Source: Acetobacter sp.
Lineage (GTDB): Bacteria > Pseudomonadota > Alphaproteobacteria > RF32 > CAG-239
DNA: 21,752 bases
Assembly: GCA_023665325.1 (NCBI GenBank)
Contig: JAMPED010000027.1
Coordinates: 1-21,752, forward strand
Reading direction: 5' to 3'
Shown here: in pieces, positions 12,193 to 21,700 of the stretch
Position numbering within the stretch: position 1 is the stretch's first letter
Layout: every line of letters starts with the position of its first letter
Made by a program: the position numbers and the translations under genes
The notes under the pieces: model-generated
Databases searched by the model: none
Told to the model about the DNA's origin: nothing
Seen by the model: only the letters and a program-made list of their open reading frames with translations

Positions 12193-13140
12193 TTAGGATA
12201 TTGAATTTTTTTCAATACGGAGGAACGGGATGAAACCAAATAGATAATAGGATGTTTGAGAAAAAGTGTATTTTTTTAGTATCTTATTTAGTTCTGTTTT
12301 GTATGCTTTTTGATAGTTGGAGGAGAAACGTTTATATTTGGTTATGATGCTATTGGTATAGCTTTTTTTGTATCTGGCATAGATTTGTTCATTTCCTTGT
12401 GCTTTAATAAAACTGAGCACTAGGTCGGTAATTTTTAAGTTATCAAGATAATGTTTTTCCTGATTTTGGGTGATGGATGCGCTATGTATGCGGCGAAAGT
12501 AGAATTTTTCTTTGTTAATTCCTATAAGGGAGGCAGCAAAGAGTGCTTGTGTGAAAAAAAGGTTATCTTCAAAATGTAATCCTTTGGGGAATAGGAGATT
12601 GTTTTGTTCGATAAATTTTCGTCTGTATAAGGTTAGGCAGGCGGTGACTCCCATTTTTTCACAGAAATGCTGACAGTCCGCAAAATGAAATGTTCGATAG
12701 TCAAAATTTGAGGGTAAATATGTAAAATTAAAATAATTTTCATTAAGCAATTCTTTGGTTTTGTTATTAACATTATAACCGCTGAAGCTTAGCATATCCA
12801 GTTCTTGGGTATGAGCGGTGGTGTAAAGTTGTTGGCACGTGTCTTCTCTTATCCAATCGTCGGAATCTAAAAACTGTATATATTCTCCGCTAGCTATTTT
12901 AAGTGCGTTATTGCGACTGTAAGATATTCCTAAGTTTTTCTGATTGATAATTTTAATTCGTTGGTCTTTTTGAGCATATTCATTTAGTATTGCAAGAGAG
13001 TTATCTGTTGAGCCATCATTGATACAGATGATTTCAATATTTTTGAGAGTTTGTTTTATAATACTGTTAAGACATTCTGGTAGATATGCACTGGTATTGT
13101 AAATTGGGATAATAATAGAGATTTTGGGAGAATTATTCAT
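12193..13140 (-). CDS. Family 2 glycosyltransferase
   Basis: A 315-residue GT-A fold transferase that would add a sugar from a nucleotide-sugar donor to a surface glycan on the cytoplasmic face of the membrane. The N-terminal half is typical GT2: ISIIIPIYNTSAYLPECLNS, IICINDGSTDNS (NDGS at 41-44) and FLDSDDW (residues 90-96, metal-binding DxD). The acceptor side (about 120-300) is basic, aromatic and unspecific. The C-terminus ends with YYLFGFIPFLRIEK, a motif also present at the end of the neighbouring small protein. The start ATG is preceded by AAGGA eight bases upstream, and the 68-residue gene ends 11 bases before it, so the two form an operon. The gene is visibly more AT-rich than its neighbours, which suggests horizontal transfer. 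The sugar is unknown. Confidence 0.9.
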   Translation of the reverse strand: MNNSPKISIIIPIYNTSAYLPECLNSIIKQTLKNIEIICINDGSTDNSLAILNEYAQKDQRIKIINQKNLGISYSRNNALKIASGEYIQFLDSDDWIREDTCQQLYTTAHTQELDMLSFSGYNVNNKTKELLNENYFNFTYLPSNFDYRTFHFADCQHFCEKMGVTACLTLYRRKFIEQNNLLFPKGLHFEDNLFFTQALFAASLIGINKEKFYFRRIHSASITQNQEKHYLDNLKITDLVLSFIKAQGNEQIYARYKKSYTNSIITKYKRFSSNYQKAYKTELNKILKKYTFSQTSYYLFGFIPFLRIEKNSIS

Positions 13141-13151
13141 TGATGTTATCC

Positions 13152-13358
13152 TTATTTTATTTTTGCGATTAAAAAAGGGAGACCAAGCAGATAATATTTG
13201 TAAATTGAACCGTTTTTTTTACGACGGATTTTAAACAATGGTATTCCGCAGATTTTCCAAATTTTCTTTTGTCTGGTTTGTTTGTATTTATAGATGGGCA
13301 TAAATAAAAAAAGTTTGATTGTTTTTTGATATGTTTCCTCATTCCATTTCTCAGGCAT
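13152..13358 (-). CDS. Small basic protein, glycosyltransferase companion
   Basis: A 68-residue, strongly basic, AT-rich reading frame with AAAGGA correctly spaced before its ATG. I recognise no enzyme domain. Its second half reads IWKICGIPLFKIRRKKNG followed by YYLLGLPFLIAKIK, the short hydrophobic-basic motif often found at the ends of bacterial glycosyltransferases and matched by the C-terminus of the next gene. It could be a real small membrane-associated subunit, or the remnant of a larger glycosyltransferase that lost its catalytic part. Its start lies 12 bases from the left arm of the 22-bp inverted repeat, so it would be the first gene transcribed from the putative invertible promoter. 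Confidence 0.6.
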   Translation of the reverse strand: MPEKWNEETYQKTIKLFLFMPIYKYKQTRQKKIWKICGIPLFKIRRKKNGSIYKYYLLGLPFLIAKIK

Positions 13359-13370
13359 TTAGAGTCCTTT

Positions 13371-13497
13371 CATCTAACGAACGTTTGTTGCTCGTGATTG
13401 CTAATGTGTTAATAATCCACATATTTTATTATATAATTTGACTTTGCGAAATGTTTGATTTAGGGTAAAAGTGTTAGCAACAAACGTTCGTTAGATG
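13371..13497. repeat. Perfect 22-bp inverted repeat enclosing a promoter: candidate invertible DNA element
   Basis: Left arm 13371-13392 and right arm 13476-13497 are exact reverse complements over 22 bases, separated by 83 AT-rich bases without a reading frame. The arm core is AACGAACGTTTGTT, itself nearly palindromic around AACGTT. The enclosed DNA holds a promoter (TTAATA, 17 bases, TATAAT). This matches the layout of phase-variable invertible promoters, with a surface-glycan operon on one side. A pair of operators or a small MITE are the alternatives. No recombinase gene is in the window. Confidence 0.75.
13409..13437 (+). promoter_or_regulatory. Promoter inside the inverted repeat (plus-facing in this assembly)
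   Basis: TTAATA (13409-13414), 17 bases, then a perfect TATAAT (13432-13437). Transcription would start near 13444 and run through the right arm. The -10 region ATTATATAAT (13428-13437) is palindromic, so a minus-facing -10 also exists, but I find no good -35 for it at 16-18 bases. If the element inverts, this promoter would face the 68-residue gene and the glycosyltransferase with a leader of about 66 bases. Confidence 0.5.
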
Positions 13498-13498
13498 C

Positions 13499-13578
13499 AC
13501 ACGTTTTTAAGCTACTAAAAGCGTGTCAAGCTTGCATTTGTGGGTGGGGTGCCTCGACCAAATGCTAGGTCGTTTTTT
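13499..13578 (+). terminator. Structured leader or small RNA ending in a rho-independent terminator
   Basis: Three structures follow the right arm. First, an 11-bp RNA stem with one G-U: ACACGTTTTTA (13499-13509) with TAAAAGCGTGT (13516-13526). Second, GCATTTG (13534-13540) can pair with CAAATGC (13559-13565). Third, CGACC (13555-13559) pairs with GGTCG (13568-13572) directly before TTTTTT (13573-13578), a terminator. The second and third pairings cannot form together, as in an attenuator. No gene lies between the internal promoter and this terminator, so the transcript would be about 135 bases. Confidence 0.55.
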
Positions 13579-13654
13579 AAGCGGATGTTAAGAAGTTGTG
13601 GGTTACTTTTTAAAAAAGTTGTAACCAAATTTTGTGCAGAGTAGCTTACTTTTT

Positions 13655-14836
13655 ATGATGAAAATGAACTTAAGATATTTTAGAAAAAGGTTGATGACTG
13701 GAGTGTTTGCCTGCGGGATGATGCTGAGTATGGCGTTGCCGGCTTGGGCACTTAATGTTATCAAAGATATTCGTATTGGGCAACAGGTGGATGGTATCCG
13801 TATTGTGTTGGATGGGGCGGAAAAGTTTGATTATGATGCTTTTTTACTCTCATCTCCGAATCGTTTGGTGATTGATGTTAAAAATGCGACTTTGCCTAAG
13901 GCGCCGACAGTGACGACTAGTAAAATTATCAGTGGTTTTCGTGCGGGGAATTTGGCTACTGGTAAAGGTAAACGTTTGGTGTTTACACTTAATACGGATG
14001 TGAATATTAAGAAGAAATTTGCGATTGAGCCAAATGCGGCACAGAAAAATTGGCGTTTGGTGTTGGATTTGAGTACACAGGGGTTTGGTGCACCTAATAG
14101 TACGGTTTCTACGAAGGCTTTGAATGTGGGTAATGTGCGTCGACAGAAGATTGTAGTACTTGACCCTGGACACGGTGGAAAAGATCCTGGAGCGATTGGA
14201 CGTTCATTTAAAACATACGAGAAAAATATTACTCTTTCAATGGGGCAAGAACTTAAAAAACATCTCGAATCTAAGGGGTTTAAAGTGTATATGACCCGTT
14301 CGACGGATATCTTTATTCCGTTACGCAAGCGCGTGGATATTGCGCGTAGCTATCACGCTGATTTGTTTATTAGTTTGCACGCTGACAGTGCCGCAAATCG
14401 TAAGGCGCAGGGGCTTTCTGTATATACTCTTTCAGAAACAGCTTCAGATAAAGAGGCGGCAGCGTTGGCTGAGCGTGAAAATAAAGCAGATATTATTGAT
14501 GGGTTGGACTTTTCGGATAATTCGCCAGAGATTAACGATGTGTTGATATCTCTTTCGCAAAATGATAGTCGCAATAAGTCTTCTAAATTTGCTGGTTATG
14601 TGGTTAATGATATGCAAAAGCAAGTGAAATTGGTGAGTAATGCGCATAAATTTGCTGGATTTGCAGTTTTAAAAGCGCCGGATATTCCCTCTGTTTTGGT
14701 TGAGTTAGGGTATCTTTCCAATTATTCGGAAGAAAAGTTTTTACGTCAGCCTTCATATCGGAAGAAGCTTGCAGAATCTATTACCCGTTCAGTGGTGAGG
14801 TATTTTAAAGATCCAGAAGTTGCCTCCTCAATATAA
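13655..14836 (+). CDS. amiC: Periplasmic N-acetylmuramoyl-L-alanine amidase with AMIN domain (AmiC type)
   Basis: Zinc amidase that removes stem peptides from glycan strands, usually to split septal peptidoglycan at division. Numbering from ATG 13655 (393 residues): signal peptide to about AWA (30-32), AMIN targeting domain (about 33-143), short linker, Amidase_3 domain (166-385). Zinc ligands are H173 (DPGHGG), E189 (TYEKN) and H242 (SLHAD); the catalytic glutamate is E350 (VELGYLSN). Residues about 262-312 form the long insert with DKEAAALAERENKADIIDG, typical of amidases whose active site is covered by a regulatory helix until a LytM-type activator binds. The start is uncertain: no good ribosome binding site is seen, and ATG 13664 or GTG 13634 are alternatives. 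A terminator-like hairpin at 13555-13578 insulates it from upstream transcription. Confidence 0.92.
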   Translation: MMKMNLRYFRKRLMTGVFACGMMLSMALPAWALNVIKDIRIGQQVDGIRIVLDGAEKFDYDAFLLSSPNRLVIDVKNATLPKAPTVTTSKIISGFRAGNLATGKGKRLVFTLNTDVNIKKKFAIEPNAAQKNWRLVLDLSTQGFGAPNSTVSTKALNVGNVRRQKIVVLDPGHGGKDPGAIGRSFKTYEKNITLSMGQELKKHLESKGFKVYMTRSTDIFIPLRKRVDIARSYHADLFISLHADSAANRKAQGLSVYTLSETASDKEAAALAERENKADIIDGLDFSDNSPEINDVLISLSQNDSRNKSSKFAGYVVNDMQKQVKLVSNAHKFAGFAVLKAPDIPSVLVELGYLSNYSEEKFLRQPSYRKKLAESITRSVVRYFKDPEVASSI

Positions 14837-18270: not shown

Positions 18271-19587
18271 ATGATTTTCGGGCTGTCGAAAGCGGTGATT
18301 GCCAGTGTGATTTTGGTATTATCTTATGCGGTGTTGTTTTCGGAAAAACTTAATCGTGCGGTAACGGTGCTGCTTGGCTCGGCGGTGATGATTTTATTGG
18401 GTGTGCTTTCTTATGACCAAGCGATTAAAGGTGTTGATTTTAACACGATTGCCCTCTTAATTGGGATGATGATTATGGTGGGGATTATGGAAAAATCTGG
18501 TGCGTTTCAATTTGCAGCAGTGGCATCCTCTAAGCTCGTGAAGGCGAATCCTCGGGGGATTTTGGCAGTACTTGGATTGGTGACGGCGGTTTTATCAGCG
18601 TTTTTAGATAATGTAACCACGGTTTTGTTGATTGTTCCGGTAACGATAGAAATTACCCGTAAGTTGAAGATTAAGCCATATCCTTTTCTTTTGATGGAGA
18701 TTTTTGCTTCTAATATCGGAGGGACGGCAACGCTTATCGGTGATCCGCCGAATATTCTTATCGGCGGGGCGGTTGGTCTTGGCTTTACGGACTTTTTGAA
18801 AGAACTTTCTTTATTAGTGCTGGTGTGTTTGGCGGTGCTGATTTTAGTGTTTGATTTGTTTTTTGGGCGGAAGATGACTGCAACGGCGGCGGCGAAAAAG
18901 GAAGTGATGAGCATTAACGAGTATGATTGTATTACAAACTTTCCGCTGTTATGGAAGTCTTTGTTTGTGTTAACACTCGTGATTTTGGGGTTTGTTGCTG
19001 GCGAGCATTTTCATATTGAAAATGGGACGATTGCGCTGTTTGGTGCGGCGATTTTGTTGGCACTTTACACGATGGGGCTCCCACATTCGGAGCGCGATAA
19101 GCGTGTGGAGGATGCCTTTTCACTGGTGGACTGGACGACGATTTTCTTTTTTACCGGTTTATTTGCGTTGGTTTATGGCTTAGAGGTTACCGGCGTGTTG
19201 GAGATGTTGGGGCATAAGGCATTGATGTTGGTGGATGGCAGCGTTAAAAAAGCGGCGTTTCTTATCCTTTGGTCATCAGCTATTCTTTCGGCGGCGATTG
19301 ACAATATTCCGTTTGTGGCAACAATGATTCCTCTAATTAAAACGATGGAAGAGAGCTTAGGTGGGCGTGAAGCGGTTATGCCGGTGTGGTGGGCGCTGTC
19401 TATTGGTTCTTGCTTTGGCGGTAACGGCTCGCTGATTGCAGCGTCTGCCAATGTGATTGTAGCGGGGATTGCCGCACGCGAAGGGCACGCATTGAATTTC
19501 TTGAAGTTTTTGTTATGGGGCTTGCCGGTGATGTTAACGTCGATTGCGATTGCCTCGGTTTATTTGTATGTGGTTCATTTTATGTAA
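18271..19587 (+). CDS. ArsB/NhaD (ion transporter superfamily) permease, first tandem copy
   Basis: A 438-residue inner-membrane transporter with about 11 helices. Key motifs of the ArsB/NhaD/P-protein group are LDNVTTVLLIVPVT (112-125) and SNIGGTATLIGDPPNI (147-162). Their counterparts in the second half are IDNIPFVATMIP and GGNGSLIAASANVI, reflecting the two-fold internal repeat of these carriers. Members move arsenite, sodium/protons or organic anions; the substrate cannot be told from sequence. The start ATG is preceded by AGGGAG (18258-18263) seven bases away. A closely related gene follows after 10 bases and is co-transcribed. There are no arsR or arsC genes nearby, so an arsenic role has no contextual support. 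Confidence 0.85.
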   Translation: MIFGLSKAVIASVILVLSYAVLFSEKLNRAVTVLLGSAVMILLGVLSYDQAIKGVDFNTIALLIGMMIMVGIMEKSGAFQFAAVASSKLVKANPRGILAVLGLVTAVLSAFLDNVTTVLLIVPVTIEITRKLKIKPYPFLLMEIFASNIGGTATLIGDPPNILIGGAVGLGFTDFLKELSLLVLVCLAVLILVFDLFFGRKMTATAAAKKEVMSINEYDCITNFPLLWKSLFVLTLVILGFVAGEHFHIENGTIALFGAAILLALYTMGLPHSERDKRVEDAFSLVDWTTIFFFTGLFALVYGLEVTGVLEMLGHKALMLVDGSVKKAAFLILWSSAILSAAIDNIPFVATMIPLIKTMEESLGGREAVMPVWWALSIGSCFGGNGSLIAASANVIVAGIAAREGHALNFLKFLLWGLPVMLTSIAIASVYLYVVHFM

Positions 19588-19597
19588 AGGGTAAACG

Positions 19598-20929
19598 ATG
19601 GTGGTTCAGGACTTGATTTTTGGTGTTTCTCCGCAGGTGATTGCGCTGTTAGCGATGGGGATTTGTTACCTTTTACTCTTTACTGAGAAGATGAATCGTG
19701 CAGTGGTGACAATGGCGCTGGCGGCAATTTTGGTTATGCTGGGGGTATTGTCACAAAAGTCGGCGATTTCAGCGATTGATTTTAACACAATTTCACTTTT
19801 GGCGGGGATGATGATTATCATCAACGTGGCGGAACGTTCGGGGATGTTTCAATATGTTGCCATTTGGGGAGCGAAGAAAGTGCGGGCGCATCCGGTGGGG
19901 ATTTTGGTGGTTTTGGCGTGTGTTACTGGTGTGTTTTCGGCATTTTTAGATAATGTGACGACGGTTTTGTTGATTGTGCCGGTGACGATGCAGATTACGC
20001 GGAAATTAGAGGTTAATCCATATCCGTATCTCTTAATCAATATTTTTGCCTCTAACATTGGGGGAACGGCGACGTTGATTGGTGACCCACCGAATATTCT
20101 TATTGGTTCGGCTTTGGGGTTGTCGTTTACAGACTTTTTGTTTCACCTTGCGCCGGTGGTGTTAGTGATTATGATAGCGCTTATTTTGATGTTTGTGCAT
20201 TTTTGGGGACCAAGCCTTGTGGCGCCGATGAAAAACCGTGCCCTAGTGATGAGTATTAACGAAAAAGACGCTATTACGGACTTTACGCTTTTATATAAAT
20301 CTCTGGGTGTGCTCGGGGCGGTCATTTTTGGGTTTACGTTGGCTGAGCATATTGGATTGGCAAATGGGTTTATTGCGCTATTTGGGGCGGCGGTTATGCT
20401 ACTTTTATATACGTTTCATTTGCCACACGCGCAGAGTGATGAGAAGGTTGAGGATATTCTAAATCACGTAGATTGGACGACGATTTTCTTTTTTACTGGC
20501 TTATTTGTGATTGTTGGGGCGTTAGAGCATACGGGCTTTTTGCAGCTGGTCGGAAACTATCTGGTGGAGGTTACTGGTGGGAGTATTCAAAAGAGTGTGT
20601 ATGTGATTTTGGGAGTGTCGGCTATCTTTTCGGCGATGGTGGATAATATTCCGTTTGTGGCAACGATGATTCCGACGCTTAAAACGATGGAAGAGGCACT
20701 TGGTGGAAGGGAGGCGATGATGCCAGTTTGGTGGGCGCTGTCTCTTGGTGCTTGTTTGGGGGGAAACGGAACGTTGATTGGGGCTTCGGCTAATGTGATT
20801 GTGGCGGGAATTGCCGCACGTGAGGGGCATCCGATTAGCTTTTTACGTTTTCTTATCTGGTCGATACCGGTGATGGTGATGAGTGTTATTATAGCCGGTA
20901 TATTCCTCTATTTAGAGTATTTCTTATAG
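19598..20929 (+). CDS. ArsB/NhaD (ion transporter superfamily) permease, second tandem copy
   Basis: A 443-residue paralogue of the preceding gene, alignable end to end without large gaps. Shared blocks include LDNVTTVLLIVPVT (117-130), SNIGGTATLIGDPPNILIG (152-170), VDNIPFVATMIP and GGNGTLIGASANVIVAGIAA. Differences concentrate in the first helices and the loop near residue 200-215 (WGPSLVAPMKNRALVMS against FGRKMTATAAAKKEVMS). The ribosome binding site AAAGGG (19586-19591) overlaps the stop codon of the first copy, so translation is coupled. The two may form a heteromeric carrier or serve different substrates after an old tandem duplication; both remain intact, which argues that each is used. 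Confidence 0.85.
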   Translation: MVVQDLIFGVSPQVIALLAMGICYLLLFTEKMNRAVVTMALAAILVMLGVLSQKSAISAIDFNTISLLAGMMIIINVAERSGMFQYVAIWGAKKVRAHPVGILVVLACVTGVFSAFLDNVTTVLLIVPVTMQITRKLEVNPYPYLLINIFASNIGGTATLIGDPPNILIGSALGLSFTDFLFHLAPVVLVIMIALILMFVHFWGPSLVAPMKNRALVMSINEKDAITDFTLLYKSLGVLGAVIFGFTLAEHIGLANGFIALFGAAVMLLLYTFHLPHAQSDEKVEDILNHVDWTTIFFFTGLFVIVGALEHTGFLQLVGNYLVEVTGGSIQKSVYVILGVSAIFSAMVDNIPFVATMIPTLKTMEEALGGREAMMPVWWALSLGACLGGNGTLIGASANVIVAGIAAREGHPISFLRFLIWSIPVMVMSVIIAGIFLYLEYFL

Positions 20930-21367: not shown

Positions 21368-21407
21368 CGTTTTTTGCGTCATTGCGAGGGCTTTAGTAAT
21401 AGGTGAT

Positions 21408-21543: not shown

Positions 21544-21700
21544 ATGTTTATTTATGGATTGCGCCGCTACGGAAAACGGTGTTTTCCTACTTGCGCGAAC
21601 AACTAAACGTTGTTGTGGTCGTTCCTTCCTTGCAACGTTAAGAGAAGTTTGCCACGTGCTTGTGCCTTACGGCGCACCTCGCAATGACGGTGCGCTTAAA

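Follow-up and report, generated by a model that had tools for sequence, protein, structure and literature searches.

The window, by which we mean the whole 21,752-nucleotide stretch analysed here, carries a 127-bp inverted-repeat element between a small operon on its left and an amidase gene on its right. Comparisons across the family refer to 152 genomes of the family of G004, which is the family of the relatives discussed below. The features of the locus are as follows.

12193..13140, - strand: glycosyltransferase family 2 gene (GT2; PF00535, E 3.8e-38), presumed switched gene
13152..13358, - strand: 68-aa open reading frame (ORF) without family, presumed first gene of the switched operon
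13365..13370, - strand: presumed ribosome binding site (AAAGGA), six bases ahead of the ATG of the 68-aa ORF
13371..13392, + strand: left arm of the inverted repeat, with the reverse complement of AAACGTTCGT at 13377-13386
13393..13475, no strand: presumed invertible segment, 83 bp, AT-rich, no frame open throughout
13409..13437, + strand: promoter-like TTAATA-N17-TATAAT, pointing right, away from the glycosyltransferase, in the assembly
13438..13466, + strand: second promoter-like sequence, TTGACT-N17-TAGGGT, in the same direction
13476..13497, + strand: right arm of the inverted repeat, with AAACGTTCGT at 13482-13491
13555..13578, + strand: weak terminator-like hairpin, 5 pairs with a T run, between element and amidase
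13567..13634, + strand: amidase leader, conserved in 7 of the 152 family genomes
13634..14836, + strand: N-acetylmuramoyl-L-alanine amidase by domain match (AMIN + Amidase_3), presumed to lie outside the switch

The arms are 22 nt each and 100% complementary, with 83 nt between them, and all six frames of the segment contain at least one stop codon, which bears out an earlier sequence-only reading of the locus as two perfect arms around 83 frame-less bases. The G+C content is 26.5% in the segment and 42.0% in the whole window. A 22-bp match had been judged too long for chance, and shuffling agrees: among 300 dinucleotide-shuffled versions of the window, no perfect inverted repeat with a 20-500 loop was longer than 16 nt. 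The inverted-site type of the element is the AACGAACGTT pair, and the site consensus ARACGTTCGTN is present in both arms, at the positions given above for AAACGTTCGT. The chance that a 22-bp arm meets this ten-base consensus on either strand is about 5 in 100,000 by simple arithmetic that ignores base composition. No duplicated bases are found at the outer ends of the element. Just outside the right arm (13499-13526) the predicted fold contains a hairpin; taken as a whole, the stretch does not fold significantly better than shuffles. Elsewhere in the window, a 13-bp inverted pair, CGTCATTGCGAGG, stands at 21377-21389 and 21677-21689, 287 bases apart.

On the left, the 68-aa ORF and the GT2 gene are 11 bases apart. 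That a small gene and a glycosyltransferase follow a well-placed ribosome binding site is upheld by AAAGGA and PF00535, and AAAGGA, lying just outside the left arm, would be unaffected by inversion. The 68-aa ORF has no family match and no homologue in our searches; the sole hint of a relative is a weak DNA match, 84% over 37 bases, to its start, at G016:C189:3726-3762 (L169). Apart from the GT2 itself, the top-scoring protein shares 48% identity with it, and among the 120 matches listed identity goes no higher than 56%, over half the length. Its cluster consists of one sequence, from the window's own contig, which the window appears to span completely, and the same glycosyltransferase was not found in other strains. 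A surface-glycan gene presumably adjoins the element, the family being that of PF00535 and the product probably acting at the surface.

On the right, 8 of the 152 family genomes have a match to the stretch 13300-13660, seven just before the amidase gene and one inside the 68-aa ORF. The matches to the amidase leader run from 13567 on, at 77-96% identity in pieces of 27-61 bases. This block is kept in relatives that have no element, and the amidase is therefore probably transcribed from a promoter of its own. The predicted fold of the hairpin at 13555-13578 is not better than that of shuffles. The eight relatives found through the amidase are Alphaproteobacteria MAGs, three of them from rectum, colon or feces, and the host of the window is itself probably gut-dwelling; their best segment is 69-75% identical in L001-L007 and 39% in L008. 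None of the eight loci has the element beside the amidase or a detectable GT2 relative, and none of the eight genomes contains the 12-base core. The tolB gene was also found in four of the eight loci, where the interval between tolB and the amidase holds other small genes. Given these other genes and the missing GT2, the cassette and its switch look like a local novelty. One relative has, upstream of its amidase (L005:6557-6685), a 28-nt inverted repeat (93%) with a 73-nt loop and without the Mpi motif. Further right in the window, 18271-20929 holds two membrane-protein-like ORFs in tandem (438 and 443 aa), by eye apparent copies of one transporter.

Promoter candidates

The sequence-only reading had placed a promoter, TTAATA-N17-TATAAT, between the arms. 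The sequence is there, at 13409-13437, but the number of such matches is not above chance: promoter-like matches in 13100-13800 number 3, against a shuffle mean of 2.7, and the two + strand candidates between the arms are likewise no more than chance would give. In a weight matrix with manually set frequencies, TTGACT-N17-TAGGGT has the top + strand score, and the strands differ modestly (9.7 vs 7.3). Both + strand candidates point right, so the better promoter candidate does face away from the glycosyltransferase side, and the arithmetic agrees with a start about 66 bases before the first gene: after inversion about 13434, RNA would begin approximately 66 bases (first candidate) or 37 bases (second candidate) before the 68-aa ORF.

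A sister element beside an Mpi-family invertase

The window's 13-base cores occur as an inverted pair in one of the 152 family genomes, G089, and the reversed pattern in none; the 153 genomes covered for the order add no inverted pair of these cores. An 18-base core, ATCTAACGAACGTTTGTT, is found in each arm of both the G089 element (L148) and the window element. The G089 arms form a 27-bp perfect repeat, and the stop codon of a serine recombinase, P0001 (201 aa, with Resolvase and HTH_7 domains), lies inside the arm. P0001 scores 280.5 bits against a cut-off of 272 for NCBIfam NF009949, the master DNA invertase Mpi family, and six of six further invertases tested also score over this cut-off. 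The G089 promoter, TTGCCA-N17-TATAAG, faces a DegT aminotransferase gene, with a larger ORF and an acetyltransferase-like ORF beyond it (both by eye). The two elements are alike in the 18-base core, identical in both arms, in similar segment size and in having sugar genes on one side. They differ in that the G089 invertase gene abuts an arm and the G089 promoter points toward the sugar genes (ON), whereas in the 21.7 kb of the window no relative of P0001 is encoded (best tblastn E 1.6).

Relatives of P0001 at E 1e-20 are present in 114 of the 152 family genomes. In an even draw from the class, which differs from that family search in query and threshold, 11 of 289 genomes had an NF009949 match at 1e-50, three of them being family genomes, and 7 of 289 had one over the cut-off, compared with 0 of 14 control genomes. 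Database names with the Mpi family are already attached to 3 of the 120 matches listed, in Alphaproteobacteria. Given the relatives in the family and these existing names, the enzyme is no novelty in the lineage. In one stretch (L149:83-3960) an Mpi-family invertase and switch stand behind phage-like genes (by eye), as if at a prophage end.

Inversion between sister species

Two loci of one genus, L044 (G100) and L048 (G102), are collinear and 85.5% identical over 2.2 kb across the invertase and beyond. Between their AACGGACGT cores, 183 bases align in reverse-complement orientation, with 89.6% identity; AACGGACGT is a close variant of the window's AACGAACGT. When the segment is turned back, identity between G100 and G102 over a 231-base stretch rises from 64% to 90%, and that between G100 and G097 (L050) from 61% to 74%. 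In the orientation of the invertase, the inverted segment lies at about 2104-2286 in all three loci; G097 is oriented like G102, and G100 is opposite. This is an inversion between species, not within one culture.

The sequence-only reading had proposed to look in related genomes for a flipped segment, or for arms and orientation conserved as in fixed operators. At the eight relatives' loci there is no ortholog of the window element to be compared in either respect; it is a related element that is inverted, between sister species. A fourth genome, G098 (L046), shares 93% identity with G100 across the invertase region and lacks the element, so element decay does happen. Two other reverse matches were dropped as inversions at such a site: that between L042 and L043 has other arms, and that between L063 and L064 is a tRNA-Thr gene on opposite strands. 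Downstream of the invertase in L042 and L043 there is another repeat, CGGTGGTTTTTACGACA-like, whose copies are rearranged; this may be a switch of three or more sites.

Sites and target genes across the family

We examined 70 recombinase loci, 30 plus 40 others among the P0001 matches listed. A best inverted pair of at least 19 of 24 bases within 400-450 bases of the recombinase was found at 14 of the 70, compared with 1 of 70 random stretches drawn from L001-L008, and in 12 of these 14 loci the pair is downstream of the recombinase gene; the other 56 loci have no pair of 19/24. AACGRACG is part of the best pair at 9 of the 70 loci, in both arms at six and in one arm at three. Given such variation of the arms near recombinases, sites of several types seem to serve related invertases. 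Across the family, AACGRACGT is found in an inverted pair in 7 of 152 genomes (reversed pattern, 3 of 152) and TAACGRACG in 5 of 152 (reversed, 2 of 152); the G127 pair, among these five, falls within a coding ORF. With the reversed counts this close to the real ones, pattern matches alone are weak. In five of the seven genomes with AACGRACGT pairs (G009, G011, G047, G062 and G089) the arms agree for at least 3 bases beyond the motif. Single cores mean little, as they are common in viral stretches: 42 of these have a single 15-base core, and in 40 of the 42 a second 9-base core within 300 bases is absent. The other two, L116 and L128, which are alike, have a second core at a distance of 238 bases; the two cores face outward and do not extend into longer arms. 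The sister elements have the cores in common, not the middle.

The AACGRACGT pairs abut an invertase in three of the seven genomes (G011, G028 and G089) and lie on contigs without an invertase among the matches listed in the other four (G009, G020, G047 and G062). In G047 the switch on contig C5, where no invertase is among the matches listed, is 86% identical over 136 bases to a copy beside an invertase on C6. The C5 copy, standing apart from its invertase-linked counterpart, is a natural precedent for action in trans. In G009 (L152:4828-9500) an orphan Mpi-type pair stands directly before genes for a polysaccharide-synthase type dehydratase, a DegT aminotransferase and a cytidylyltransferase, a set that we take to resemble a pseudaminic-acid type biosynthesis operon. 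The switch neighbours elsewhere are a GT2 in G011, a TPP-enzyme gene in G062 and, on C5 of G047, a family-less 129-aa ORF. By eye, nucleotide-sugar and glycosyltransferase-like genes come next in G005, G032, G040 and G097; in G020 a degenerate invertase paralogue is followed by a glycosyltransferase-like ORF, with an acetyltransferase-like ORF opposite; and G028 has no glycan gene beside its switch. In most of the inspected sister loci, though not in all, the gene across the switch is thus one of sugar or glycan metabolism. A likeness between the 68-aa ORF of the window and the 129-aa ORF of G047, a short recurring motif by eye, was set aside because BLASTP gives no support.

Promoters were scored, again with the manually set matrix frequencies, in 12 elements including that of the window, after 3 of 15 elements without a pair had been left out. 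In 6 of the 12, 15-17 bases separate the end of the better promoter's -10 box from the outer end of the core in front of it; the same distance is 26 bases in the window element. The better promoter faces sugar genes in G089 and G040 and faces away from the presumed switched side in G047 (C5), G062 and G005. By the same promoter-direction reading, the window element would be OFF.

Degenerate invertase paralogues

In the relatives it is common to find a second, degenerate paralogue separated from an intact invertase gene by an intergenic gap. In a set chosen for having such a match (20 regions plus L149, L156, L158 and L153) there are 19 gaps of 150-325 bases between intact invertase and paralogue. 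Arg7, Ser9, Gln13, Arg72 and Arg75 (P0001 numbering), presumably key residues of the invertase, are kept in 18 of 18 intact invertases of these gaps. None of the 25 paralogues keeps more than one of the five, Ser9 being kept in seven, and four tested paralogues have NF009949 scores of 46-59 bits, far under the cut-off. One ORF, in L153, scores as an invertase though the key residues are lost. The best inverted pair has at least 17 of 20 bases in 10 of the 19 gaps, a value reached by 0 or 1 of 100 shuffles; 3 more gaps have 16/20 pairs, reached by 0, 1 and 7 of 100 shuffles, and in the remaining 6 a strong inverted pair is absent, 30 or more of 100 shuffles being as good. The paralogue has the same direction as the invertase in 10 gaps and is divergent in 9. 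In L149, L156 and L158 it is, by eye, the first gene before glycan genes. The paralogues are located as follows.

L149:4220-4807, L156:4287-4880, L158:2708-3286, L211-L224, L228: degenerate paralogues, possible switch-dependent regulators

With the paralogue across an intergenic repeat from the invertase, its expression could depend on the switch, and a paralogue made in one state only could latch it.

Discussion

The 127-bp element is best read as an Mpi-type invertible promoter that is served by an invertase encoded elsewhere, controls the 68-aa ORF and the GT2, and was assembled in the OFF state. We give this reading, which is built on sequence comparison, a probability of roughly 0.8. The candidate switch beside a glycosyltransferase gene that had been proposed from the window's letters is strengthened by the Mpi site in its arms, the G089 core at an invertase and the inversion of a related segment between sister species. 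We infer the following course for this copy. An Mpi-family serine recombinase from elsewhere in the genome would pair the 22-bp arms, cut close to the middle of AACGAA-CG-TTTGTT, the near-palindromic core, and invert the 83 bases. In the assembled orientation the promoter would point right and leave the left operon OFF; after inversion it would point left, and transcripts starting in or just before the left arm would include the fixed ribosome binding site, the 68-aa ORF and the GT2, to give a phase-variable surface glycan. The host bacterium would then probably turn a surface-sugar enzyme on and off at random.

An unlikely alternative is that the element is a relic, a former Mpi-type invertible promoter that has been fixed since the genome lost the matching invertase. 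The window contains no invertase, and G098, which keeps its invertase region and lacks the element, fits such decay, but the arms are still identical at 22 of 22 positions where drift would be expected without recombination. It is similarly improbable, if anything a shade more so, that the target of the switch is the amidase on the right, or genes on both sides, instead of the glycosyltransferase alone. Both promoter candidates point at the amidase in the assembly; against this stand the pre-amidase block in relatives without the element, which suggests a separate promoter, the weak terminator-like hairpin in between, and the sugar or glycan genes across the switch in most, though not all, inspected sister loci. 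A fixed pair of operators, in which a dimeric regulator binds the near-palindrome AACGAACGTTTGTT on both sides of the promoter, is very unlikely. The core is nearly palindromic and single cores are common, as the viral stretches attest, but cores of this type lie directly beside Mpi-family invertases, sister species carry a related segment in opposite orientations, and 22-bp identity is more than operators need. The remnant of a transposon or other insertion element, or an RNA hairpin or attenuator without inversion, is hardly credible: the cassette does stand where four relatives have other small genes, but the outer ends carry no duplicated bases, the sister elements are alike in their cores only, and a loop of 83 bases makes a poor hairpin.

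The Mpi-type invertible promoter is itself of a known kind. ARACGTTCGTN is the repeat flanking promoters under the Bacteroides fragilis master invertase Mpi (PMC8375218), and the Mpi-controlled promoters of the B. fragilis polysaccharide loci go back to Coyne 2003, as quoted in PMC8375218, PMC4747536 and PMC5903667. Many distant sites of B. fragilis are served by one serine invertase (PMC8375218, PMC4747536, PMC5903667), and in B. intestinalis the repeats are GTTCGTTTAA, transcription starts inside the proximal repeat and the invertible segments are 183-186 bp (PMC8375218). The window element and the B. fragilis promoters have in common the site consensus and a short invertible segment beside a glycan gene. 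Unlike the Bacteroides elements, that of the window has an alphaproteobacterial host and a segment of 83 bp as against 183-186 bp in B. intestinalis, and it adjoins one small operon, with no invertase in the 21.7 kb of the window, where B. fragilis has a capsule locus. The familiar Hin/Gin-type and fim-type switches are similar in that site-specific inversion controls surface structures, but their sites and partners are others; the fim switch uses tyrosine recombinases.

Proteobacteria do have invertible-promoter loci, far rarer than in Bacteroidales (PMC8748976), and one survey of reads gives inversions in 0 of 4 Alphaproteobacteria (PMC5903667). Our search found no paper on invertible promoters or invertons in Alphaproteobacteria; the PhaseFinder survey (Jiang 2019) may contain cases from the lineage. 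The remark that such switches are not known in this kind of alphaproteobacterium agrees with this search as regards the switch; the enzyme's family, Mpi, is already named in the class. Nor did we find, judging by title, a paper on the pairing of intact and degenerate invertases.

More tentatively, and we regard this as doubtful, the gut Alphaproteobacteria of the family may have a network of surface-glycan switching by Mpi invertases, with orphan targets such as the window element and with a degenerate paralogue across the repeat that holds the switch by blocking the invertase or its sites. If the reading of the window element is true, promoter inversion of the Mpi type, best known from Bacteroides, would extend to an uncultured lineage of Alphaproteobacteria, which would gain a testable way of changing its surface, with the inversion between sister species as evidence. 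The pairs of invertase and pseudo-invertase prompt one to ask what biases or latches such switches, and, if the network reading is true, a paralogue across the repeat would be a switch design new to description.
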